The notes under the pieces are model-generated. The model was given only the letters and a program-made list of their open reading frames with translations. It had not been told where the DNA came from and ran no database searches. From Asterias amurensis (taxonomy: Eukaryota > Echinodermata > Asteroidea > Forcipulatida > Asteriidae), in assembly GCF_032118995.1 (NCBI RefSeq), contig NC_092669.1:11580335-11644334 (forward strand): DNA of 64,000 nt, read 5' to 3'. Of the stretch, positions 1-59,782 are shown piece by piece (positions within the stretch are counted from its first letter, which is position 1; each line of letters opens with the position of its first letter). A program made the translations under genes and the position numbers.

Positions 1-2207
1 TGGCGCCATACGGAAACTTTTCCGTTTTTTGTTAGGTAGCCAACCGGGCTAATGAACTCTTGGTTTAACTTGCCCCCAGGAAGTTCAAATAGCCCTGAAT
101 TTTAACATGTTTTGGCAATGAATGTATCTATCTGGTACATCAACAATTTATTATTCACATCTGAATGGAAGAAATATGAGCATTTTAAACAAATAGTTTG
201 CACAGGGCAAGTTGAGAGGTGGTGTTTACTAGCACGTAACAGTTTTTACTAGATATTGTACGCATTTCGATTTTTTATGAATCTCTGTATTTTAAACTCA
301 ATTCAGCTTGTAGCTGCAATGTTTGAATGTGTTTTAATAAACCAATAATAAAAGCCCTGCACCATGACTTGCTTACACAATGGAAACTCGGTACCTTGGG
401 TAATGCTAACAGATAAGGGTCAAGTCGAGAAACTATGACCCTTCTAGTTTGAGATGAGGCTAGGAATTTATGCCACCGTGACTTGCTTGGTCAAGCAAGA
501 TCCAGGAGTATTAATTTTGGTTTTGACCTTGCACTGATGTATGTAGACTGTATAATGATCAGTACTTTCCTGAGTTCTGTGAACAAAATCACAGCCATAT
601 TACTCGGGTGGGATTTGAACCCGTGCAATTCTAGAGCAGTGTCTTGCCTGCTCGGTAGCTGCCGTCGATTTCACAAAACTCTTCGCAACTTAAGACTAAT
701 CTAAGGACTTGGGACGAGTCCAATCCCTGCACTGTAGCATGCTAACCCTAAGATTCAAGTTAGGACGAGTAACTCGAGATAAGACCAGTCCTAACTCTTT
801 GTGAAAACGACCCTAGGAGGCAGTTCGGCTCTTTCGCTTTACAATTTTTTTTTACACTGATGTGTGTAAGCACTGTATACTCAGTACTTTCCCGGGTTCT
901 GTGCATTCCACAGGCATAATACTCGGGTTGGATTCAAACCCACTACCTTTGCAATTCTAAAGCAGTGTCTTACCAACTACATAAAGACAACCTAGACTGC
1001 CCAGTAGCTAGAGGCAGTGTGTATCCTATATTAAATAGATGTTAAATTTGCCAAATGCTAATTTTGGTTTTACCCTCACACCGGGCGATCTTATCAGTCT
1101 TATTTGTTGTTAATGAATTTAAACTGAACGGAGTAAGTTGGATTTTGTTTATATTTTTTCGGGCAAGTGTTAATAAGTATTTGTTAAAATGTTTATGATT
1201 GGATGTTGCTATTGGGTGTCTGATTAGAATTGGTGTTAAAGTTATGGCTATGTCTGAAATGGCCGATGGCTGTGGCTGTGTTAAGGATGTTGCTAAGGGT
1301 TGTGATAAGCCGTACCCGGAGCTGCTAATTGGATGTAGCCTTAATATATTTTTATACAGTTTTCGATCTTCATATGAAATTTAAATTTGTCTATATTTTT
1401 GTAATCTTTCTGAAAGTGGGCTGAGTCTTTTGAAATAAATATAACTGTTATCCCTTAAATTATATTCATTGTACTTGTGTTTATTTTTTGATATTGTTCA
1501 TTCCTTGTGCTTTTCTTCTGTTTGATTGGTCAATACTGAAAATACCACTCATATGAATCCACTGGTTATATACTTTGGAAGTTGAACGTGCCTTACATTT
1601 TCACTTAAAGGCACAGGGATGGGCACTATTGGTAATTACTCAAAACTTACTTGCGTGACGAGCAATTGAGAGCTGTTGATGGTATACATTGTGAGAAACG
1701 GCTCCCTCTGAAGTAACTAGTTTTGTTTGAGAAATTAATGAGGTCACTTTCTCCTCATTCAAATACTAAAAGACTTCAGCTCAACAATTTTGTTTACAGT
1801 GGGATTATATGTTAGCTGTCACGCTTTGATAAAACTTTTGTGTCAATATATCTGAAATTTTTCTCAACACAAAGAGACCTGACTGTAGCAGTGGATTTCA
1901 GAACAGAGCTTTCGATTATTGTGGACCTCTTCCCTTCTTGAAGTATACAGGAATAACATTAAGTCGAATTACAGTTGTGTAAAGTTTCAGGCAATACTTT
2001 TAAAGTTCTTGCAGAAAAAAAGGTGAGGGGCTATGGGGTTAATTTGCCAAATTTTCAACAGATAAAATTAAGAAAGTACATTATCATCTAATTTGGGATG
2101 GCAATTGCCCCCCCCCCACCTCGCCCGATCGCCCCGCCCCCAACAAGAGCCGCCGCTATTTTTGACAGCGCCCTCTGTTGACTGGTTTCTTAATTAATTG
2201 AAACAAA
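1..2207. other. Intergenic sequence with SINE and MITE fragments
   Basis: No supportable gene. The first 25 bases are the right end of the GGCGCCATACGGAAA palindromic element also seen at 2589, 58195 and 59167. Two reverse-oriented tRNA-like SINE copies lie at about 530-665 and 845-1020. A TAGGACGAGTAACTCGAG repeat lies at about 660-815, and a MITE fragment at 1605-1760 begins TTAAAGGCA and includes GGCACTATTGGTAATTAC. Bases 1020-1600 are plain AT-rich sequence. Just upstream of the TXNDC9 start are a C-run (2108-2117) and the motif CAGCGCCCTCTGTTG. Confidence 0.6.
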
Positions 2208-5200
2208 ATGGCGTACGTAGAAACGTCTTCAACGCAACAAGCGGCGGAGATTTTGGAAGATGAAACGTTAGCAGAAGAGGTAAGTGTGTCTACACGCCGA
2301 ATCAGGGAGAGAAGAGATGTGATTGATGTTAAAGGAGTTAAAGGTTGACCTTAAAACGGCCTTATTTACTGAGCAGAATGATGGTAATATTCGGCATGTT
2401 TAGAATTAATGTTGGGCGCAAACTTCAAGTTTAATCAATCCTCGCGCAAACTTCAAACTCTGCTGAGCGCGTAAACTCGATGAACCGGTTTAAGTTTAAG
2501 CCTGCGCACTGATTATTCAACTCAACTTCCAATCTTTGCGCAAATTTGTTGATGTCAAAAAGGTTTTTTTTCCTTCCGACTTTTGCAGGGAAAAGTTTCC
2601 GTATGGCTGGCGCCACCACTTTTTCATTCGATATGAAATAATATACCATCTAATTTACCTCAATGACAATGAGATATCCCTTTTTGTTTGTAAAAAAAGG
2701 TGAAAAAGTGGTGGCGCCATACGGAAAGTTATCCATCGTTTCCACACAAAAAATGGAGACCGCTATCAATCATATCCACGAATGTGGAGCTGAAAGCAGG
2801 ACGAACCTCGTAGTTCTAGAAGTTGGGTTTAATCTAGACCCAGTAACTGGGGCGCTGTACTCCTTTTCAACAATTTTTGACTTTATCTGTCGTACTAGCG
2901 CCCCAGGGAATGGCACAGAATTTTAACGAATACCCAGTTTTTCGCGACACCCAGCCACAAAAAATGCCTCAAAATGACAAAAAGACCAAACAAACTAGCT
3001 CAAAAATCGCCTACTCTATTCTCGATACGTCTAGGATGTAACATCAGGCATTTAATTGTACTCACGATCATTTTTTAAACTCCAAATCGATGATTTTTAA
3101 CTCCGCATCGTGGAGCGATTGACAAGTCTGCGATTTTCGGATGTGTATGGTAACGAAACATGGCGTCGCGTTGTGGGTGGATGTCCATCAACGGCTGTTT
3201 AATGCTACACTTGTTACAGGCGTTGCAGCGAATGCTATACATTGTACACGGGGATGGGTACAGGCGCTGCAGCTAGCGAGTGCCCACGTGCGTTCAATCA
3301 TGGTCAACGTAACTTACACGGTGCCGGGTTGTTGGAAAATTATCAGAAAGGGGGTGAAAGTTTCTCAGAAAGGGAATATTGTCTGAAAGAGGGGATTTTT
3401 CTAGTCATCGCCCCCCCCCCCCCAAAAAAAAAAAAAAAGGGGGAAAATATGATAAATAAATAAAAACCGCTGAACTTCATCTAGGCCTACGATTTTTGTG
3501 CATGGTTAAATTGCTTCTTATAATGTTAAGTGCTGCCAGTGTCACTGTAGAATTTTTTTTTATTTATTTATCATCTTTTTTCCCCTTTTTTTCGTTTTTT
3601 TCCTTTTTTTTTTGGGGGGGGGGGCGATGACCAGAAAAATCCAGACCAGCAGACTTCATCCAGAACCATCCAGCTTCATCCAGCAGACTTCAGACCAGAA
3701 AAATCCCCTCTTTCAGACAATATTCCCTTTCTGAGAACCTTTCACCCCCTTTCTGATAATTTTCCAACAACCCGGCACCGTGTAAGTTACGTTGACCATG
3801 ATTGAACGCACGTGGGCACTCGCTAGCTGCAGCGCCTGTACCCATCCCCGTGTACAATGTATAGCATTCGCTGCAACGCCTGTAACAAGTGTAGCATTAA
3901 ACAGCCGTTGATGGACATCCACCCACAACGCGACGCCATGTTTCGTTACCATACACATCCGAAAATCGCAGACTTGTCAATCGCTCCACGATGCGGAGTT
4001 AAAAATCATCGATTTGGAGTTTAAAAAATGATCGTGAGTACAATTAAATGCCTGATGTTACATCCTAGACGTATCGAGAATAGAGTAGGCGATTTTTGAG
4101 CTAGTTTGTTTGGTCTTTTTGTCATTTTGAGGCATTTTTTGTGGCTGGGTGTCGCGAAAAACTGGGTATTCGTTAAAATTCTGTGCCATTCCCTGGGGCG
4201 CTAGTACGACAGATAAAGTCAAAAATTGTTGAAAAGGAGTACAGCGCCCCAGTTACTGGGTCTAGGTTTAATCCTGAATTTGTCCTTTTTGTTTAACCCG
4301 CGCGCCTGAATAAACCGCGCGCGCCACATTTGTTTGATAAATTTTTTGTAGTAAAACGAGAAAAACAAATTTGACAATTCGTTTGAAATACAAAATCCAT
4401 CCCCATTCCCATGTTTGTTTCTAGTCTAGTGGTGAAAATTTACCGTACCAACAATGTTATTGTTAGTAACTCAAACTGTATTTGGTGTCAAATTCATTAA
4501 ACGACCCCAGTACACCCTGTTCGTGAAGAGAAGGGGTTCTGCCGTTGTGTGTGGCAGTCCAACCATCTTCAATCATGAAGGCTGCATTAGAAAGGAAGAC
4601 AAAGAGAGAGTAAAACTAAACATTCCTTATAGTAATACAGCATTTTTGTTTTTGCCATCAGGAACTATTGGACGAGCTTGAGAATGAAGAAATCCCCGCC
4701 CACATCAGAGAGGCGAGGATGGGTGAGCTGAAAAGCGAACTTCAACGGATGAACGAACATCAGCGTAAAGGATACGGTACTTACAGGTACACATTTTCAA
4801 CACTATGTGTCTCCACCAACTTTGTTGGGCTGAGGAGAGTACTTTTTGAGAAAGGAGTAAAACAATGTCACAAAAAAAAAAAAATTTTCAGGGGAAGAAA
4901 TTATTTTAGCATGAACGTATTTACGCGACTCTCCTGAAAACATTGCTGTGTGATTTTCACTTAATTATCAAACATTTTCAACTATTGAAGCTGAAACTTC
5001 TATAGGTAAACTATATTACATACATCTTCATTCACAGTGAGTATGGATTCATGTCATGGCCAAGAACTTGATGTACAAAAGGTATCAAAACCCTTTCAAC
5101 ATATCTATATTTATTTTACTATCTTTTTTTTCACAGTGAACTGAAAAAAGAGAAGGAGCTACTAGATTTGACGACACAAGAGAACAAAGTCATCATTCAC

Positions 5201-7326
5201 TTCTTCCATTCGGATTTCAAACTTTGTGCGGTCATTGATAAACATCTAAAGGTGAGATTCCAACTAAGTTTAGAAATAACTTTCTTTTCATTTACAATGC
5301 TTCGTAGCCTTGGTGCCATGGCCAAGGGAAGCGGTTAAGAGCATCAAGATCAAGTTCTGGTAGTTAAGTCATCCGAGTGTGGGTTCAAATCCCGGTCGTG
5401 ACACATGTGTCCTTGAGCAAGATGCTTTACTATAATTGCTTTACTATAAATACTGCGAGGGTAGAGGTTGATATTGTGAATGGAAAAGCCTTTGGAGCGC
5501 CACGGCAGCTCGTGTTGTGTACTTCCCAGTGAGCTGAGAAAGATTAAAGGAATGTTATTAGCCCAATGACCAGGGCACTAGTAAAGCACATTTTGATGGT
5601 TATTGTGAAATGCTCTATATAAGAACTAACTATTATTATTAATTATGAAATATTAATTCATTGTCTGTTTTCTTGTTATTTCCGTGTCAGGTTTTAGCCG
5701 AGAAACATTTTGGAACTAAATTTGCCCGTATCAGTGTCACAGTTGCTCAGTTCTGTGTCCAGAAGTTGCACATCAAAGTTCTACCTGCTGTTTTAATCTT
5801 CATAGACGCAAAGGAGAAAGACAGGTACGGCCATTTTGTTTCTTATTCTTTCTAAGGGCCAGAGGGGGCACCCATAGCATACAGTACAAAATGCTTAATA
5901 TTAAAAAATACACGAAAAATACTAAGAAGTCTTACAGCTTTTTACAGTAAAGGGAAATTATTCATGGACTAAAATCTAATGCTGATGTCTCGAAACCAAA
6001 TTCAAATATTTTACTGAGAAATTACTCCTTTCTCAAAAACTACGTTAATTCAGAGGGAGCCGCTTTTCACAATATTTTATACTATCAACCTCTCCCCATT
6101 ACCAAGTAAGGTTTTGTGCTTTAATTATTTTGAGTAATTACCAATAGTGTCCACTGCCTTTAACGAATGATGATTGTTTTTTATCCCTTCAGGATTGTTG
6201 GCTTTGAGGACTTGGGAAATCAAAACGACTTCAGGACAGAAGTGCTTGAGAATAGACTAGCCAAGAGTGGTAAGTAATTTATTTAAATTCCATTTTTTAA
6301 TATTCCCAGCGAGAAATGCATTCACCCTTTCGAAACCATGGCTTTGGCTCCAGATTTGGCTCAGGCTAGATTGGCCCATCTATTGCTTTGACAATTGCGC
6401 GTGCTTTGTGTATGTGCTCAGGGCTTCAGACGACGGAGCGGAGCCCGAAGCCGAATCCAAATGGATTTTAAAAGGGCCATAGTGCAAGTCTCACATGTCT
6501 TTTGTTGAACTTGTTCATTCCCACAACTCCAATACTGCTGATGCATACAGGCAACGACTCCGCTCATCAGCTGATCAGACCCGGCTTTCCATTCCTAGAA
6601 CTAGACAGAAAGCTGGGGATAGTTCAATCTCCATAGCTGCCCCTCGCCTATGGAATGAGCTCCTCGCAGGTCTGAGAGAGGCGATCTCGTTGCCTGTATT
6701 CAAAAGCCGCCTCAAGACATTTCTGTTTCCCAACCCATCCTAGTCTGTTTGTTTTTTCTTTTGTCCTAGTCTCATGTAAAACGCTCTGTTCTCCGTAGAG
6801 CGCTATATAAATGCTTCATATTATTATTCGTGTCTTAGTTAATTTTTAAGACCACTTTCAGGGATGTGATAGACTTTTGTACAAAAACCTGAACTAAAAA
6901 ACCTGTATAAGCGCAAAGCGTGAAAGCTTGTGAGCGCAAAGCGAGGCAGCTTGCGAGTTTGAAGCTTGCTTACATACAATTATCTTTGGTTTTGAAAGCC
7001 CTACTCTTTTTTTTTTAAATTTACATATTTTGTTTTGGGTATTGGCCAGGTGTTAAAAACATGGTAGTTGTCACATTAAATTGTCATTGTCACTTGAAAT
7101 TGTCATTGTCACATGAAATTGTCATTGTCACATGAAATTGTCATTGCCACTTGACAATGTCACTGTCATTTATCTCCAATACAGTTTTGAAATTATTGTC
7201 ATTTTGTCTGCTTGTACAGGTGTTATACAACTTTTCAATGCACCAATTGAGCCATTTGAGAAGAAGACATTGCTAGGCTACGAGAGACGGAAGCCGGACG
7301 AGGAAAGCGATGACGATGATTACTAA
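2208..7326 (+). CDS. TXNDC9: Thioredoxin domain-containing protein 9-like (phosducin-like 3 family)
   Basis: Six exons: 2208-2279, 4662-4786, 5137-5251, 5691-5824, 6193-6269 and 7220-7326. All junctions are GT-AG and keep phase, giving 209 residues; the human protein is slightly longer. Residues 25-70 are a charged helical region, followed by a thioredoxin fold (about 80-175) with the family strings KLHIKVLP and VGFEDLGN. The C-terminus is acidic (EESDDDDY), as in the human protein. The fold has a single cysteine (KLCAVID) in place of a CXXC redox pair, which is normal for this family. Family members modulate folding of actin and tubulin by the TRiC/CCT chaperonin in the cytosol; that role is from family knowledge. 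The start ATG has A at -3 and G at +4. Introns 1, 4 and 5 host mobile elements. A second TXNDC9 paralogue elsewhere in the genome cannot be excluded. Confidence 0.9.
2589..2735. mobile_element. Short palindromic MITE, GGCGCCACCAC family
   Basis: Terminal inverted repeats read about TTTCCGTATGGCGCCACCAC on one side and GTGGTGGCGCCATACGGAAA on the other, around an AT-rich core. Lies in TXNDC9 intron 1. The left end carries a small insertion (TGGCTGGCGCC). Other copies: 58195-58327, 59167-59333 and a cut-off end at 1-25. Confidence 0.8.
2834..4265. mobile_element. Foldback element with >600 bp inverted arms
   Basis: The left arm (2834 to about 3469) and right arm (about 3559-4265) are near-identical reverse complements around a spacer of about 90 bp. 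The element starts CTAGACCCAG and ends CTGGGTCTAG. GTTTAAT flanks it on both sides (2827-2833 and 4266-4272), a 7 bp target-site duplication. Each arm carries a C-run/A-run near the centre and an 81-codon open frame, present once per arm; the two copies differ by one residue. The right arm has an extra block of about 60 bp of CAGACTTCATCCAG-type repeats near 3630-3695. No transposase is visible, so it is presumably non-autonomous. Arm identity and the intact flanks suggest a young insertion. Confidence 0.88.
5308..5643 (+). mobile_element. tRNA-derived SINE
   Basis: Near-full copy in TXNDC9 intron 3. The tRNA-like head includes AGCGGTTAAGAGCATCAAG and the B-box-like GGTTCAAATCCCG, followed by a body (CTTGAGCAAGATGCTTTACT, GTAGAGGTTGATATT) and a tail CTCTATATAAGAAC...TATTATTATT. 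The tail resembles the 3' end of the LINE fragment at 6484-6835. Confidence 0.75.
6010..6163 (-). mobile_element. MITE fragment, GGCAGTGGACACTATTGG family
   Basis: The right terminal repeat (CCAATAGTGTCCACTGCCTTTAA) and about 150 bp of adjoining interior are present; the other end is lost. Lies in TXNDC9 intron 4. Matches the complete copies at 20033, 20589 and 39166. Confidence 0.75.
6325..6480. mobile_element. Palindromic MITE, CGAAACCACGGCTTCGGC family
   Basis: Inverted ends resemble CCCTTTCGAAACCATGGCTT and its complement (AAGCCGAATCC...AAAGGGCC), with an inner TTGCGCGTGCTTTGTGTATG. A related copy is at 9745-9923 and a one-ended copy starts at 52627. Confidence 0.6.
6484..6835 (+). mobile_element. 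5'-truncated LINE, C-terminal end of reverse transcriptase ORF
   Basis: Bases 6495-6743 encode an 82-residue tail whose second half (APRLWNELLAGLRE...FKSRLKTFLF) is the typical C-terminus of non-LTR retrotransposon ORF2 proteins of the L2/CR1-like group. After the stop come about 90 bp of 3' UTR with GAGCGCTATATAAATGC and a short ATTATTATT tail, typical of those clades. Only the 3' end is present, in intron 5 of TXNDC9; no apurinic endonuclease or RT core is visible. Confidence 0.75.
7072..7170 (+). repeat. 19 bp tandem repeat
   Basis: About five copies of a 19 bp unit resembling TTGTCATTGTCACATGAAA sit just upstream of the TXNDC9 exon 6 acceptor. The repeat is imperfect at both ends. Confidence 0.85.
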
Positions 7327-7383
7327 AGACATAAAGGCATAGCAGCCGATTTTATGAAATGCTAGGATTAATCCTATCTCGAG

Positions 7384-7553
7384 TTAAGGCCAGGTCATAC
7401 AGTCCCTGATAAAGTGAACGAAAATACACGCCCTCGATTGGTTAAAATGATCCACACAGAATATGCCCACGCTCATTCAACCAATCGAGGGCGTGCATTT
7501 TTAATGCTCTCGTTTTTGCTCTCATTATCGGCGCCTGTGTGACCGGGCCTTAA
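7384..7553. mobile_element. Foldback MITE, AAGGCCxGGTC family
   Basis: A nearly complete palindrome: TTAAGGCCAGGTCATACAG at the left pairs with GTGTGACCGGGCCTTAA at the right, and the inner arms share CGCCCTCGATTGGTT / AACCAATCGAGGGCG. A second copy is at 57151-57310 in WDR45 intron 1, and half a copy is at about 43780-43858. Confidence 0.8.
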
Positions 7554-8918
7554 GGACGAGTAACCTGTCCTAACCTAGGATGGGTTCAATGCCTCCTAAC
7601 GTCTATGGTAAGCAGCTAAACTTGTCCTTAGTCCTAAGATTAATACTAAGTTAGGAAGAGTTTGGTGAAATCAACGACTGGGCACCTTTGGTAATTGTCA
7701 GTTGGTGTATCCCAACCATAAAAAAACAAATCTTTGACTCAATTGGTCATCAAAGTTGCAAGAAAACAATGGAAGAAAAAACACCCTTGTTGCACAAATC
7801 TGTATTCTATCAGATGCCCAATAGAAGCTTTCAGGCCTGAAGTCTTTTATTTTTTGAGTGAGTAATAACCCCTTTTAATTCTGTAATCAAAAGTAACTCG
7901 CAAGGCAGCCATAGAAGAAAAACAAACTAAGGACACAGAAAACAATGTGTACGCTTTTTTGACAATTATCAGCCAATGGCAGGCTAGGCTTTTTTTGACC
8001 CCAGTGTGAGGTCATTTGTGGGGTCACATGCAAGGGGTCATTTTGTTTACCTTTGGTTAGGCAAAAATATATACATGTACCTGCAGAGTTAGACAAGATG
8101 GCAAGTAAATGTTAATGTAAAATTTAAAGTTCTAAACAATTTTACTGTAAAACTAAGCCCTTGCACTGAAAGATAAATTTGTGTATACTCCTTTTGTTTT
8201 TTTCGTTGTTTAAATTGGTTTGTATATATATTTAAGTTAAATATTGCAGTGACTTTTCCTCTCTTTTTTATTATTAATTATCATTAAGAAGACCAAAACT
8301 TTCTTGAGTAACAATTTTACTGATATACTTATGTCGGTTTACAACAATAATTGTATACAACCTTTACATGAAAGTTAAACGCACTGGACATCTTTTGTTA
8401 TTGTCAAAGACCAGTATTCTCACTTGGTGTATCACAACTAAAAAATCTGTGAACATTCGGGTTCACATGATCATCAAAGTTGCGAGAGAATAATGAAAGA
8501 AAAAACACCTTTGCTTTCTGAGTGATACATTCCAAACGGGAATTAGTTTTATTTATTTCTCATCAATGTGACATTTCATACAGAAATATTTCAATAGATA
8601 TTGTAACTTTTATGTAAATTTGTGATCTTAGAAAATGAAATTTTACAAATTCTTGTATGTACACAGAAACAATTCAACAGGCCTGGAATTACACGCTGGC
8701 CACAAAGGCCATAACCCCTGGTATTGGCCTTGGTGCCCATTCAAAAGTTTCCCATTGACTTTTCCCTAAGTTTTCCAATGAATTGGAAGTGCCCTTTGCA
8801 AAATAAAAATGGCCTTGCCCTTCCTTTCAAAGATGAAACTCCATGTCTGATCCAAAGTGGAGGTTATCAATGAGTCAACAGTTTCGCTCACTAAGATTAT
8901 ATTATTTTTTGTACAAGG
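7554..8918. other. Non-coding stretch after TXNDC9
   Basis: Presumably TXNDC9 3' UTR and intergenic DNA. It contains a TAAGGACGAGTAACCTGTCCTAA repeat (7550-7670), two diverged copies of a MITE interior (7680-7900 and 8390-8560; key string ACAGTTGGTGTATCxCAACxA), and a copy of the GGCCTGGAATTACA repeat at 8680-8850. That family also occurs near 29220, 40445, 44150, 45280, 49215, 59985 and 60650. No gene seen. Confidence 0.5.
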
Positions 8919-9402
8919 TGAATCAAAAAGAAGTTGACCGATATTTAATATTTAAAAACAAAACAATTGACACTCAAAACCCCAGTGAGTCAAAAAGAAG
9001 TTGACTGAGATTTATGATTTAAAAACAAACAACTGACACTAAAACCCCCATTCGTGCATATATTAAACAAGCATGTTGTCCTGCTTATCTGGAAAAAAAG
9101 GGGGAAAATTGATAATTTCTAAGAGAACTTGTGCATGCTGATTCATTGAAAGCCTTCATGTTGCTTGACTGAATTCAATCAATCAGGGTAGCAACAAATT
9201 CATTCATTTGTTTTGTCAAGTATTCCGTGGACAGCTTGCAAAAACGAGTAGCTTAATTAAAATATACTTAATTGCTCTTAAGATTGATAAATTTCTTTCA
9301 TTTGTTTTCTTCTCATAAGCAGGAGAGGATGCTTGCATGTGAATTTTTTGAGAAAAAGATAACCAATCCCGATCAACTTCTTTTTCACTCGCCCTGTTGT
9401 AT
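8919..9402. mobile_element. Mariner-like MITE
   Basis: Imperfect inverted ends of about 30 bp flanked by TA: CAAGGTGAATCAAAAAGAAG at the left and the complement of CAACAGGGCGAGTGAAAAAG at the right. An internal direct repeat of GTGAxTCAAAAAGAAGTTGAC (8930 and about 8993) duplicates the left end. No transposase ORF. The assignment to mariner rests only on end length, A-rich ends and TA flanks. Confidence 0.5.
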
Positions 9403-9744
9403 GAATTTTCTTTAATAAATTTTATATTCAAGTTGATTATAACTTGTTTTTTTAGAATTACAAATTTCTGTTGACATTAACTACTTTTGCATAATAAAAG
9501 AAGAAAGGATTCATGAATGAAGAATACAAAAGGAATTATGTTATTTAAATAAACTACTCCATTCTGGATCTTTAAAAACTTGTAGCAATTTGATTGTTTT
9601 TATTGCAGTTTGGTTGACAATATCGGCTCAAAAATTAAACAATAGTCAAACAAAATGTTGGACTTAAGTTTTGGCCTATTTTTAAAAATACCAATATTTC
9701 CCTATAGCTTATTAATTGGGTTAAGTTATTAAAAGGGCATCAGG

Positions 9745-9923
9745 AAGGCCCTTTTCCAAACCACGGCTTGGGCTTTGTGTTTGGCTAAAAGGCTTCGTTC
9801 TCTCGTTTGAAGCCCTGAGCGTGTACACGCAAAACACGTGCGCAATAATTGTCAAATCAACCGGCGGGGCCAAGCTAGCCGGACCCGAATCCAAAGCCGA
9901 AGCCGTCGTTTCGAAAAGAGCCT
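9745..9923. mobile_element. Palindromic MITE, CGAAACCACGGCTTCGGC family
   Basis: Ends AAGGCCCTTTTCCAAACCAC and GTCGTTTCGAAAAGAGCCT are mutually inverted; the core carries AACACGTGCGCAATAATTGTC, shared with the copy at 6325-6480. Bases 9403-9744 and 9924-10780 hold no gene; two C-runs of 15 or more occur near 10530 and 10738. Confidence 0.6.
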
Positions 9924-10779
9924 ATGATAACATGTAGATAGCGCCCTCATTTGAGAAGTTACATAATAATAGTATGGTCCCTAAGCTATTTTTAATACGT
10001 AGATATTTGTATGAAGAAACACGCACGAAATAGCAAACGAATAGGAACTAGACTGCTGGTTGGGAAATTTGACTTCTGCAACAAAAAATGCGTTTGTTGT
10101 GATTTACTGATTGGAAAGATTTTTTAGATCAATATTCTGTCAGCTGTCAGTCTTCTGCGAATGCAATTGTCACCATCGGAATTAACATCAAATCACAGTG
10201 AACAGCCAGCCGGAGTATGATTGCCAATTTCAGGCGGACCACCCGGCATTTTGAGTAAGTTTTGTATGATTGAATGAACCGCCAAAAGGCGCAAAACAGC
10301 CCTGTATGTTTACATACTGTGTGTGAGAGAGTGTCACTCATGTCAGTCTGTCTTTCGATTGCATAATTGAAATGATTGAACATGAATGATTGATTTTGAT
10401 GTTCTTTCTCTAAGTTATTGTGCTTAAATTTCCGCATACATATCATGCTAATGTAACACAGAGTCATGAATGTCGATTGTTGCCACTGTCACTGCAGGAC
10501 TAACGAGTGACGGCACCCAGAAGATTGTGCCCCCCCCCCCCCCCCAAATAAAACACACACGCAGCGAAATAAGTGAAAATTTCGCCTGCCTATCAGTTTG
10601 CTTTAAATATTTTAAATATTTTTGTTGTTGTTGGTATACCGTACCCTGGATACAATGAAATTTCCTCTTTATTTGAATTTCCTTCTCAATAACTTTTTGA
10701 AATGTGAATGTTTTTACCATTTGTGATTTGTATGTAGCCCCCCCCCCCCCCCCTCTTGCAATTCTAGTTTTTGGTCAAG

Positions 10780-13700
10780 CCATTTTTGCATTTTTTTAAT
10801 GAATACCAATTATTTGTCTCCTTCCTATCCCTTGCTTAATGTTAAGAACAACCTTTTTGTATAACAATAACCTTTTTCTTCCCTTACTTCTTGCTTATCT
10901 TTTAATTAAATTGTTTTTCTTCCAAATTATTTCATTTTGTGAATATTTTTGTTGTATAATAATAACCAGTTTTCTTCTCTTATTTCTTGATTATGAAATC
11001 GTGTGTTTTAAATAACTTGATTTTGTGAATATTTTTCTTGTATAATAATAACTTTGATTCTTCCCATAATTTCTTGCTAACTTTTAGAAATGCTTGGGGA
11101 ACCATCGTGGTTCGAGGACATCACTTGACTTTTAAAGCAAGTAAGTAAGCATTTCTTGTTTATACAATCACGTACTTGTTAAATAATTTTATTTGTAAAG
11201 ATTTTTCTTGTATAATAATAACTTTCTTCTTCTAATAATTTCTTGCTAATCTTGTGATTTTGAATAATTTCACTGTGTGAATTTTTTTCTTGTATAATAA
11301 TAACAACCGTTTTCTTCTCTTATTTCTTGCATGTATTTTAAATAATTTGATTTTGTGATTATTTTTTCATGTATAAATAATTATAACTTTCTTCTTCCCA
11401 TAATTTCTTGCTTATCTTTGTATTTTTGAACAATTTCACTGTGTGAATATTTTTCTTGTATAATAATTACCGTTTTCTGTTCTTATTTCTTGCTTATATC
11501 ATCTTGCATTTTTAAATAATTTGATTTTGTGAATATTTTTGTTGTATAATAACAACTGTTTTCTTCCCTTATTTATTGCTCAAAAAATCATGCATTTTTA
11601 AATAATTTGATTTTGTGAATATTTTTTTGTATATAATAACTTGTCTTATTTCCTCATTCATGCTTAATTTTGTGTTTTTGAATAATTTCACTGTGTGAAT
11701 ATTTTTGTTGTATAATAATAATAACTGCTTTCTTCCCTTATTTCTTGTTTCAATATTGTTCTGTGGACCCCTAAGCATGGGAGGAGGAAACATGGTAGAC
11801 TGGCAATAACTTACACTGACATTCTCAAAATAGACACAGGACTTGAATCAGCAGATTTCAAGTCAGCAATGGGGGACAGGAAGGCTTGGGGAACCATCGT
11901 GATTCGAGGACATTACTCAACTTAAGCAAGTAAGTAAGCATTTCTTGTTTATACAATCACGTATTTGTTAAATAATTTTATTTTGTAAAGATTGTTCTCG
12001 ATAATAATAAGTTTCTTCTTCCCATAATTTCTTGCTAATATTGTGATTTTGAATAATTTCACTGTGTGAATATTTTTCTTGGTTAATAATAACAACCGTT
12101 TTCTTCTCTTATTTCTTGCATGTATTTTAAATAATTTGATTTTGTGATTATTTTTTCATGTATAAATAATTATAACTTTCTACTTCCCATATTTCTTGCT
12201 AATCTTTGTATTTTTGAATAATTTCACTGTGTGAATGTTTTTCTTGTATAATAATAACCGTTTTTCTTTTCTTATTTCTTGCTTAAATATAATCTTGCAT
12301 TTTTGAATAATTTCACTGTGTGAATATTTTTGTTGTATAATAACAACTGTTTTCTTCCCTTATTTACTGCTTATAGTATAATCATGCATTTTTAAATAAT
12401 TTGATTTTGTGAATATTTTTTTGGTATAAAATAACTTGTCTTCTTCCCTCATTCATGCTTGATCTTGTGTTTTTGAATAATTTCACTGTGTGAATATTTT
12501 TGTTGTATATTAATAATAGCTTTTCTTCCATTATTTTTTGTTTCAATATTGTTCTGTGGACCCCTAAGCATGGGAGGAGGAAACCTGGTAGACCGGCACT
12601 AACTTACACTGACATTCTCAAAATGGACACAGGACTTGAATCAGCAGATTTCAAGTCAGCAATGGGGGACAGAAAGGCTTGGGGAACCATCGTGATTTGA
12701 GGACATTACTCAACTTAAGCAAGTTAGTAAGCATTTCTTGTTTATACAATCATGTATTTTGTTAAATAATTTGATTTTGTGAATATTTGTTATGTATAAT
12801 AATAACTTTCTTCTTCGCATAATTTATTGCTAATCTTGTATTTTTTGAACAATTTCACTGTGTGAATATTTTTGTTGTATAATAATAACAACCGTTTTCT
12901 TCTCTTATTTCTTGCATGTGTTTTAAATAATTTGATTTTGTGATTATTTTTTCATGTATAAATAATTATAACTTTCTTCTTCCCATATTTCTTGATAATC
13001 TTTGTATTATTTTGAACAATTTCACTGTGTGAATATTTTTCTTATATAATAATAACCGTTTTTCTTTTCTTATTTCTTGCTTATATCATCTTGCATTTTT
13101 AAATAATTTGATTTTGTGAATATTTTTTTGTATAATATACAATCTCGGTTTTTGAATAATTTCAACTGTGTGAATATTTTTGTTGTATAATAACAACTGT
13201 TTTCTTCCCTTATTTATTGCTCATAAAATCATGCATTTTTAAATAATTTGATTTTGTGAATATTTTTTTGTATATAATAACTTGTCTTATTTCCTCATTC
13301 ATGCTTAATCTTGTGTTTTTGAATAATTTCACTGTGTGACTATTTTTGTTGTATAATAATAATAACTGTTTTTCTTCCCTTATTTCTTGTTTCAATATTG
13401 TTCTGTGGATCCCTAAGCATGGGAAGAGGAAACATGGTAGACTGGCACTAACTTACACTGACATTCTCAAAATAGACAGGACTTGAATCAACAGATTTCA
13501 AGTCGGCAATGGGGGACAGAAAGGCTTGGGGAACCATCGTGATTCGAGGACATCACTCGACTTAAAGCAAGTAAGTAAGCATTTCTTGTTTATACAATCA
13601 TGTACTTGTTAAATAATTTTATTTTGTAAAGATTTTTCTTGTATAATATTAACTTTTTTCTTCCCATGATTTCTTGCTAATCTTGTTTTTTTGAATAATT

Positions 13701-14140
13701 TCACTGTATAACTATTTTTTCTTGTGTAAAAATAACAACCGTTTTTCTTCTCTTATTTCTTGCTTATAAAAGCATGTATATTTAAATACCTTTTTATTTT
13801 GTGAATATTTTTCTTGCATATAATAATAACTTGTCTTCTTCCCTTATTTCTTGCTTAACTTGTATTTTTAAATACTATCATTTATTTTGTGACAATTTTT
13901 GTTGTATAATAACAACTGTTTTCCCCCTTATTTCTTGCTTTTAAAATCATGTATTTTCAAATAATTTGATTTTGTGAATATTTTTCTTGTATAATAATAA
14001 CTTGTCTTCCCTTATTTCTTGCTTATCTTGTATTTTTAAATAATTATTTTCACTGTGTGAATATTTTAATTTGAGGTGAACCCAAATAAATTGTATATCT
14101 TTTAATTTACAAATCCTTCCTATTATCTTTTTATTCATTT
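10780..14140 (+). repeat. AT-rich higher-order tandem repeat carrying LINE tails
   Basis: The array is built from subunits of roughly 70-100 bp with the recurring strings TTTGATTTTGTGAATATTTT, TTGTATAATAATAAC and TTTCACTGTGTGAATATTTT. Superimposed are three longer units that each start GTTCTGTGGAxCCCTAAGCATGG at 11758, 12551 and 13399, giving periods of about 793 and 848 bp. A fourth, partial one is near 11090. The approximately 165 bp insert encodes KHGRRKPGRPALTYTDIL...MGDRKAWGTIV, a typical C-terminal tail of non-LTR retrotransposon reverse transcriptases. A retrotransposon 3' end was therefore caught up in satellite-like amplification. Open frames in the array are by-products. Confidence 0.8.
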
Positions 14141-58194: not shown

Positions 58195-58327
58195 GTTTCC
58201 GTATAGCGCCACCAGTCACCACTTTTTCATTCGATATGAAATGATTTAGTATCTAATTTACCTCAATGAGATATCCTTTTTTGTAAAAATGAGTGAACAA
58301 GTGGTGGCGCCATACGGAAAGTTATCC
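58195..58327. mobile_element. Short palindromic MITE, GGCGCCACCAC family
   Basis: TTTCCGTATAGCGCCACCAG...CACCACTTTTTCATTCGATATGAAA at the left; GTGGTGGCGCCATACGGAAAG at the right. 58328-59166 has no gene. Confidence 0.75.
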
Positions 58328-59166
58328 TAAGTTAAGTTTTCAAATTGTAATCATAAACAATAATTAATTTAAACATTAGTATTTTTAACAATGTTTTAAA
58401 ATCCCAAACCCAACTCCAAAATAACATGCCAATTCTTGTCCCCCAAAACACAAGTTTCAAGAAGACATTCATCCTCACTGACTGAACAGCTATCTAGATA
58501 ATTATCTGTAAGAAATTTACTTATTTTACCTTCAAACAACTTGCATACTTGATGTTTTTGTCAGCAGAAATAGCGCAGTTGAAAAGTGTCAATAAATAAA
58601 TACATCGTGTGAGGTCAAAGGTTGCCTGTACTTTTTATTGTTTTGACGGGTCGTATCTGGGATCTTCGACTTTTTCCAAGAGGGGTTTCTTAATTTTAGT
58701 TAAACTTTACCAGTCCTCTGTGGTAAATTTTATACGAGATATTGTATACTAATCAAAGCGCGCGTGTGTCTTTATGAAGAAAGACTTAGTTAAGTTTACT
58801 TTTGAGCTGCACACGCGGGAACTGTAGGGCGCCCCCATGTCACATTTTGTGCAGCAGAAATTTTGAGACTGACCGCTTATTTTGATGAAGAACATCTTAC
58901 AATCTATAGATTTTAAGAAGCAAATTCTCAGACGAACAGTGGGTAGGTAAGTATGTTCATTTGCTGTCCTCCCAATTTGCAGCAACTTATTCGTTGTCTC
59001 TGTTGCGGGTATACTAAGTAGGCATGGCTAAATAAATTGCTTGCCGAAAATTTGAATTGAGGTTGTTTCTCATCATCATGATCATGGGGATGGAGGCAAA
59101 ATTAGACCCGCCCCCCCAAAAAAAATGTCATAATATTATGAACATCTTCATTCTTTATTTAATAAA

Positions 59167-59333
59167 GGATAACTTTCCGTATGGCGCCACCACTTCTTCA
59201 CGCATCTTTACAAAAAGGGATAGGGCCTATCTCATTGAGGTAAATTCGATACTATTTCTACAGTAGGCCCCCTACTATATTAATATATTTCATATCGAAT
59301 GAAAAAGTGGTGGCGCCATACGGAAACTTGTCC
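59167..59333. mobile_element. Short palindromic MITE, GGCGCCACCAC family
   Basis: GGATAACTTTCCGTATGGCGCCACCAC pairs with GTGGTGGCGCCATACGGAAACTTGTCC. 59334-59782 is the PTDSS2 upstream region with no recognisable motif. Confidence 0.85.
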
Positions 59334-59782
59334 TGATAAATAATAGTATAATATATTGTACGATATTAATTAATGTTACAAATACAATGTTGTTACTTCT
59401 GAATCTGAACATTCATCGTCCACTCACAAAAACGCAAATCAAACTTCAAGGTCAAGAAAGACGCAAGATTTCCTTTGATTTTGAATTCGATTTAACAGGA
59501 CCAACAAGAACGGTGACTGATACTAGAATCTAGATAGATAATTTCGGTAAATGTTAAAACCTTTTGGTGTGCGGCCAAAATATCATTCAGAAACTAGTGT
59601 GATCATTCTTATTTCAAGAACACAAAAACGCAAATAGAAACTTTTCTTCACACACAGTTATTGTAATTTCAGCTCTTTACTTTACAAACCTTTGACGAAA
59701 AAAGCATTTCCATGGTAACAAGTTTGCATGACAACCAAGAACTGACTGAAGTTGTACACTGGTCTCATTTGTGGCGAACAAG

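Follow-up and report, generated by a model that had tools for sequence, protein, structure and literature searches.

A long, nearly perfect palindrome lies in an intron near the start of a 64,000-nucleotide stretch of Asterias amurensis DNA (contig 22, 11580335-11644334; this whole stretch is called the window here). What kind of sequence is it, and how have its two arms come to be so alike? An inverted-repeat scan and the comparison of copies identified the long inverted repeat at 2835-4264 as a real palindromic mobile element of 1430 bp. Its termini, set by comparing copies, are TAGACCCAG...CTGGGTCTA. The locus is organized as follows.

2208-2279, plus strand: exon 1 of the host gene, with an ATG and 24 codons, then GTAAGT (read by eye)
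2826-2834, no strand: left target-site duplication GGTTTAATC, 9 bp, same as 4265-4273
2835-3406, plus strand: left arm, 572 bp, 99% complementary to 3693-4264
2835-2863, plus strand: 29-bp end TAGACCCAGTAACTGGGGCGCTGTACTCC, common to the short palindromic forms
3141-3386, plus strand: left-arm ATG frame of 81 codons, probably due to chance (from the frame list; no Pfam match)
3393-3466, plus strand: weaker inner left arm with C and A runs, 79-86% complementary to 3557-3642
3467-3556, plus strand: loop between the inner arms, 90 bp
3557-3642, minus strand: weaker inner right arm (inverted-repeat scan)
3643-3692, plus strand: extra segment on the right side only, with the CATCCAGCAGAC motif; served to orient copies; absent in copy L068
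3693-4264, minus strand: right arm, 572 bp (inverted-repeat scan)
3713-3958, minus strand: mirror 81-codon frame with one residue changed (stop-to-stop frame 3713-3976)
4265-4273, no strand: right target-site duplication GGTTTAATC, 9 bp, same as 2826-2834
4662-4786, plus strand: exon 2 of the host gene, in frame, phosducin-like (read by eye; part of the peptide matched)
Family ends: terminal sequence TAGACCCAGTAACTGGGG

The scan-extended arms (2825-3406 and 3693-4274) are 582 nt long, 99% identical and 286 nt apart, and comprise the 572-bp arm and 10 flanking bases. Further inward, 3393-3459 pairs more weakly with 3576-3642 (67 nt at 79%), and ~50 additional bases are found on the right arm (3643-3692). 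Long inverted arms (572 bp, 99%) around a short non-coding middle are characteristic of the foldback group. A preliminary description of the window had given the arms as almost identical over more than 600 bp; near-identity holds for 572 bp at 99%, and 600 bp is exceeded only when the weaker inner part is counted. The spacer of about 90 bp that it reported is the innermost loop. Its boundaries needed correction. Copy comparison places the end at TAGACCCAG instead of CTAGACCCAG, and the span is 2835-4264 instead of 2834-4265, with C2834 falling in the target-site duplication, outside the element proper. The duplication is not the 7-bp GTTTAAT but the 9-bp GGTTTAATC that contains it. The palindrome had also been called far larger than the others nearby, and it is the longest inverted repeat among those listed for window 1-12000, the part scanned. 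The window has one copy of these ends (2 end matches versus 0.00 expected). Another short palindromic repeat, GGAAAAGTTTCCGTATGG(C)GCCACCAC...GGTGGCGCCATACGGAAAGTTATCC, occurs in the window at 2589-2736, 58217-58327 and 59158-59334. It is common in the loci fetched from the genome, where three foldback copies (L038, L070 and L089) and this repeat are nested together. At 11336-14044, the window has degenerate tandem arrays whose periods range over ~80-177 bp.

The genome (491.5 Mb, 23 contigs) contains many related sequences. A 35-base end pattern with up to 3 mismatches had 315 forward and 317 reverse matches, 632 in total, against 0 for the reversed pattern, and an inner-arm pattern had 125 (64 and 61), again with a control of 0. 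With two ends each, these matches would correspond to roughly 300 elements, ~60 of them long. Among the best 40 of 581 candidate places, the left arm and its inner edge are 97-100% identical, and most right arms are 98-100% identical, with two at 90% and 93%. We extracted 69 elements of 86-2465 bp from fetched loci; these loci are no random draw and were taken from the matches listed, namely 100 of the 632 end matches, 100 of the 125 inner-arm matches and 100 of 136 matches from another pattern search. Elements with identical 20+20 flanking bases were counted once. The 9-bp duplication is exact in 59 of the 69 elements, has one mismatch in 3 and four or more in 7. Among these 7, the duplication of L037 is exact at 10 bp, and L038 was matched with an inner end and has one mismatch when its outer end is used. 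Dispersed copies with target-site duplications are a further character of the foldback group. The preliminary description had proposed a young foldback transposon in intron 1, with the presence of other copies genome-wide as a test; near-identical copies with target duplications bear this out.

Foldback artefacts occur in long reads, according to the available part of one report (PMC12870357), and the palindrome could in principle be a foldback read or a duplicated contig end joined during assembly. Against this stand the hundreds of end matches and the exact 9-bp duplications. The arms also differ by their own private variants and, because each carries them, both were assembled separately. 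We see practically no chance of an artefact.

The insertion sites have a mild preference. The target starts with G and finishes with C in 61% of cases, and G never occurs at -2 (47 elements, both strands). We joined the flanks of 62 elements and compared them with the fetched loci; in 4 cases, a relative ran across the junction. The relative of L009 is 87% identical over 240 bp, but the nine duplicated bases differ in it; that of L055 is 81% identical over 180 bp or, with gaps allowed, 72% over 285 bp. These two look like clean empty sites, judging from the alignments. The other two elements, L070 and L089, sit within copies of another short repeat.

The family is not limited to long copies. 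Short forms of 86-175 bp with the same ends account for 30 of the 69 elements (29 leaving aside the mis-paired L038). Six have arms without a mismatch (L015, L019, L021, L031, L065 and L066), and in six others the only differences are in the few bases next to the centre (L013, L020, L026, L032 at 1501, L057 and L092). The remaining ones, mostly of a decayed T type, have more arm differences. The centres of the young short forms differ by small, mostly symmetric losses, which would fit loss of the palindrome centre through opening of a hairpin followed by rejoining. By eye, the base that follows TTTT (C, A or T) separates the subfamilies, as do additional changes present in both arms. Other loci are less regular. 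Of the single-ended copies, L054 and L058 resemble, by eye, short forms that have decayed, L056 is a long copy without its far arm, and L071/L025 has 61 bp of the end and then other repeats. Two further long copies are broken (L072 and L073), and L074 is a complete one. L082 (C3:9969326-9971326) has the same end, and 128 bp of its arm match the long arm at 71% before other sequence takes over; we read it as an old relative that might preserve part of a larger ancestor. One of its frames resembles, by eye, what we take to be a piece of a retroelement integrase. Two short forms lie 559 bp apart with the same flanks in L084 (C5:9271420-9273420; 100-221 and 659-780), as if the site had been duplicated in tandem with its element, and the second is uncounted owing to the flank rule. 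At C18:3581210-3581234, the 21-bp palindrome TAGACCCAGTAACTGGGTCTA looks like two element ends joined with nothing between them.

Do the arms resemble each other just because the copies are recent? In 29 long copies, the arms are 97.5-100% identical, corresponding to 0-14 differences within the part of the 572 bp that aligned. Private single-arm change amounts to only 0.15% per site, which makes the burst recent. The comparison of arm identity within and between copies, suggested in the preliminary description, gave nearly equal means of 3.5 and 4.0 differences over 565 bp (27 copies, leaving out L016 and L052 with their short arm alignment). Both figures agree with recency as the sole cause, with no equalising process needed. 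The distribution of variants points elsewhere. We divided the arm into an outer part (positions 1-469) and an inner part (470-565). Of 37 private variants in the outer part, 36 are confined to one arm and 1 occupies both; the older shared variants (146, 232 and 383) occupy both arms in 9 of 10 copy-cells. The contrast has a Fisher probability of 7e-8 on cells, to be read in view of the shared signal coming from only three outer sites and of the non-independence of cells within one site; by site, the both-arm counts are 3/3 for shared and 1/37 for private variants. Repeats with 29, 27 and 26 copies (the last also omitting L063, with its 14 arm differences) gave both:one counts of 9:1, 7:1 and 7:1 for shared variants and 1:36, 1:33 and 1:19 for private ones, and leaving out two or three copies gave Fisher values of 2e-6 and 5e-5. 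An earlier test on a gapped alignment of 27 copies had found 1 private variant in both arms and 35 in one.

The inner arm behaves otherwise. Its shared variants occupy both arms in 10 cells and one arm in 51, which goes against a general equalisation and favours recency. Oriented haplotypes of the long copies form several lineages. GTGA at 470/483/489/506 marks one arm of ten copies (9 full-length copies and L024) and both arms of L068. In L068, the outer arms are identical at 604/604 positions, so that a single haplotype is present twice, and the right-side extra segment is missing. This copy, like the two-armed shared variants of the outer arm and the both-arm changes of the short-form subfamilies, is not what recency by itself predicts, although L068 could instead descend from a symmetric ancestor. 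We regard recency as the sole cause as unlikely. Since shared outer variants are two-armed and private ones are one-armed, the outer arms were probably equalised in the source lineages and not in the resident copies. More speculatively, the element may pass through a hairpin state in which one arm templates the other, so that a successful transposition can re-make the palindrome. Such a state would explain the two-armed lineage-defining outer mutations, the double haplotype of L068 and the old short forms that are still palindromic with shortened centres, but we hold it only as a tentative idea with the odds against it.

The element does not appear to encode its own transposase. It has no coding capacity beyond the 81-codon frame, which the preliminary description had reported twice with one residue different, and which is indeed present as an ATG frame in both arms; longer stop-to-stop frames exist. 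Chance or a conserved arm function had been offered as explanations. An equally long ATG frame occurs in 261 of 2000 dinucleotide shuffles of the arm, and the frame has no Pfam match at E up to 1, so we rejected it as a gene; chance is probably sufficient. Of 62 arms, 59 have the frame open for at least 81 codons, which young copies would be expected to show.

What enzyme moves the element? An 8-10 bp, usually 9-bp, duplication is typical of Mutator/MULE elements, and 9 bp is the length found here. Because of the 9-bp stagger and the foldback form, a Mutator/MULE-type enzyme is the likeliest. Tm1 and Tetris, which are built alike and have 8-10 bp duplications, have a demonstrated and a provisional MULE link, respectively (PMC3169594, PMC4079207). 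Genome profile searches gave 12 places for the MULE domain (PF10551) and 5 for the ZSWIM1-3 RNaseH-like domain (PF21056), and no transposase with the ends of the foldback element was found among them. The 12 MULE-domain places have no foldback ends within 1.5 kb, and some of their own ends may lie beyond the loci; none of the 5 ZSWIM-type places is near foldback ends among the matches listed. Patterns for ends that continue differently matched 8 and 65 places (reversed controls 0 and 5), and the mirrored end was absent within ~0.5 kb in the 4 of these 73 places that were read. The MULE places comprise six similar ones (L039-L043 and L048), the pairs L044/L045 and L047/L049, and L046 and L050. 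The edges of L039/L048 and L044/L045 read TGTCGG(A/T)CACTTCGTACC, and L047/L049 have the common edge ACCTGTTAATC (by eye, one side). These edges differ from the foldback ends, and the three resident families (the L039 group, L044/L045 and L047/L049) were rejected as same-end partners.

The resident MULE elements have features of their own. L044 (C9:13391887) and L045 (C11:21658898) contain a MULE transposase frame of ~650 codons, in which PHD and FLYWCH match at scores that do not reach the Pfam cut-offs, and their common edge contains tandem GTCACTTCGTACCCA units. L047 (C15:2378003) and L049 (C3:21149967) are 99.6% identical copies of a MULE element with an open frame of 1045 aa; towards the end of the part examined, there is a weak match to Ulp1 protease.

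A transposase of another class could also move the foldback element. Foldback forms arise in unrelated superfamilies, and the superfamily is not fixed by the form alone because Galileo of Drosophila is P-type in the available part of its description; the MULE-domain places without foldback ends would also agree with another class. The duplications of Galileo are 7 bp, however, versus 9 bp in 59 of our 69 elements, and we consider a non-MULE enzyme improbable.

Taken together, we are fairly confident that the palindrome is a non-autonomous foldback DNA transposon, a long copy from a recent burst in an older family whose members include short palindromic (MITE-like) forms, moved in trans, most likely by a MULE-type enzyme, with outer arms equalised in the source lineages. 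A transposase made elsewhere would recognise the common ~29-bp end, excise the element and insert it at a 9-bp staggered cut. The outer arms could have been equalised in the source lineages in two ways: gene conversion between them, or a hairpin or cruciform stage that underwent copying or mismatch repair. Once inserted, the two arms would gather mutations independently.

By eye, the intron (2280-4661, GT-AG) is 2382 bp long, and the element with one duplication copy makes up 1439 bp of it. Joining later exons gave a peptide that matches the Pfam family Phosducin with 23.4 bits (cut-off 23.0). It also has five PDB matches; two are designed proteins, and phosducin-like proteins 2 and 3 are among the others. 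TXNDC9 is a phosducin-like kind of protein. Of the original assignment to intron 1 of TXNDC9, the exon reading supports intron 1 and the Pfam and PDB matches support a phosducin-like gene. In a computed fold, a stem runs along nearly the whole element (-1223.7 kcal/mol, a value without shuffle comparison), so the element, if transcribed, would form the long double-stranded RNA proposed in the preliminary description. This stem and the position in intron 1 of a predicted transcribed unit are what a hairpin regulating the host gene, as a conserved structured RNA or a source of double-stranded RNA, would lead one to expect. The element nevertheless resembles its dispersed fellow copies, and 2500-4600 has no match in Rfam, which makes a regulatory hairpin very improbable.

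Although long, near-perfect palindromes are generally considered unstable, this foldback family keeps making them. Its recent copies with arm lineage markers provide a natural record of when inverted arms equalise, apparently in the source lineages or during movement and not in resident copies. Intronic foldback copies can also supply long double-stranded RNA.

How does the family compare with known systems? A literature search turned up nothing that we recognised as this foldback family, and we make no wider claim. Arms of internal tandem repeats are common in FB, Tetris and Tm1. Among echinoderms, the sea urchin TU long-inverted-repeat element of 1983 is reportedly of foldback type; it resembles ours in kind. 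Galileo of Drosophila has foldback-like long arms, many arms-only copies, 7-bp duplications and a P-type transposase, in the available part of the report (PMC3573991); it resembles our family in the long arms and the many arms-only copies and differs in the duplication. Tm1 of root-knot nematodes (PMC3169594) follows the same plan as our family: its arms are foldback-like, it has MITE-like forms, and its duplications are mostly 9 bp long, with 45 of 53 in the range of 8-10 bp. One Tm1 form contains a Phantom/MULE transposase, whereas none was found here in the MULE and ZSWIM searches. The Tm1 arms consist of 13-15 bp tandem repeats with a mean identity of 93.15%, compared with 97.5-100% in our 29 long copies, and the mild target preference is present here only, none having been found for Tm1 in that text. 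The closest system is Tetris with DAIBAM in the Drosophila virilis group, likened by description: a non-autonomous foldback element and a short element with a common arm end, with 8-10 bp duplications (PMC4079207). In the available part of that report, an autonomous Tetris copy was not found and the element was provisionally placed in Mutator. Its arms contain ~220-bp tandem repeats, of which none were noted in our arms, and few copies are complete, versus ~60 recent long copies here. The foldback transposon itself is thus of an ordinary known kind, and the record of arm equalisation is its sole unusual part.
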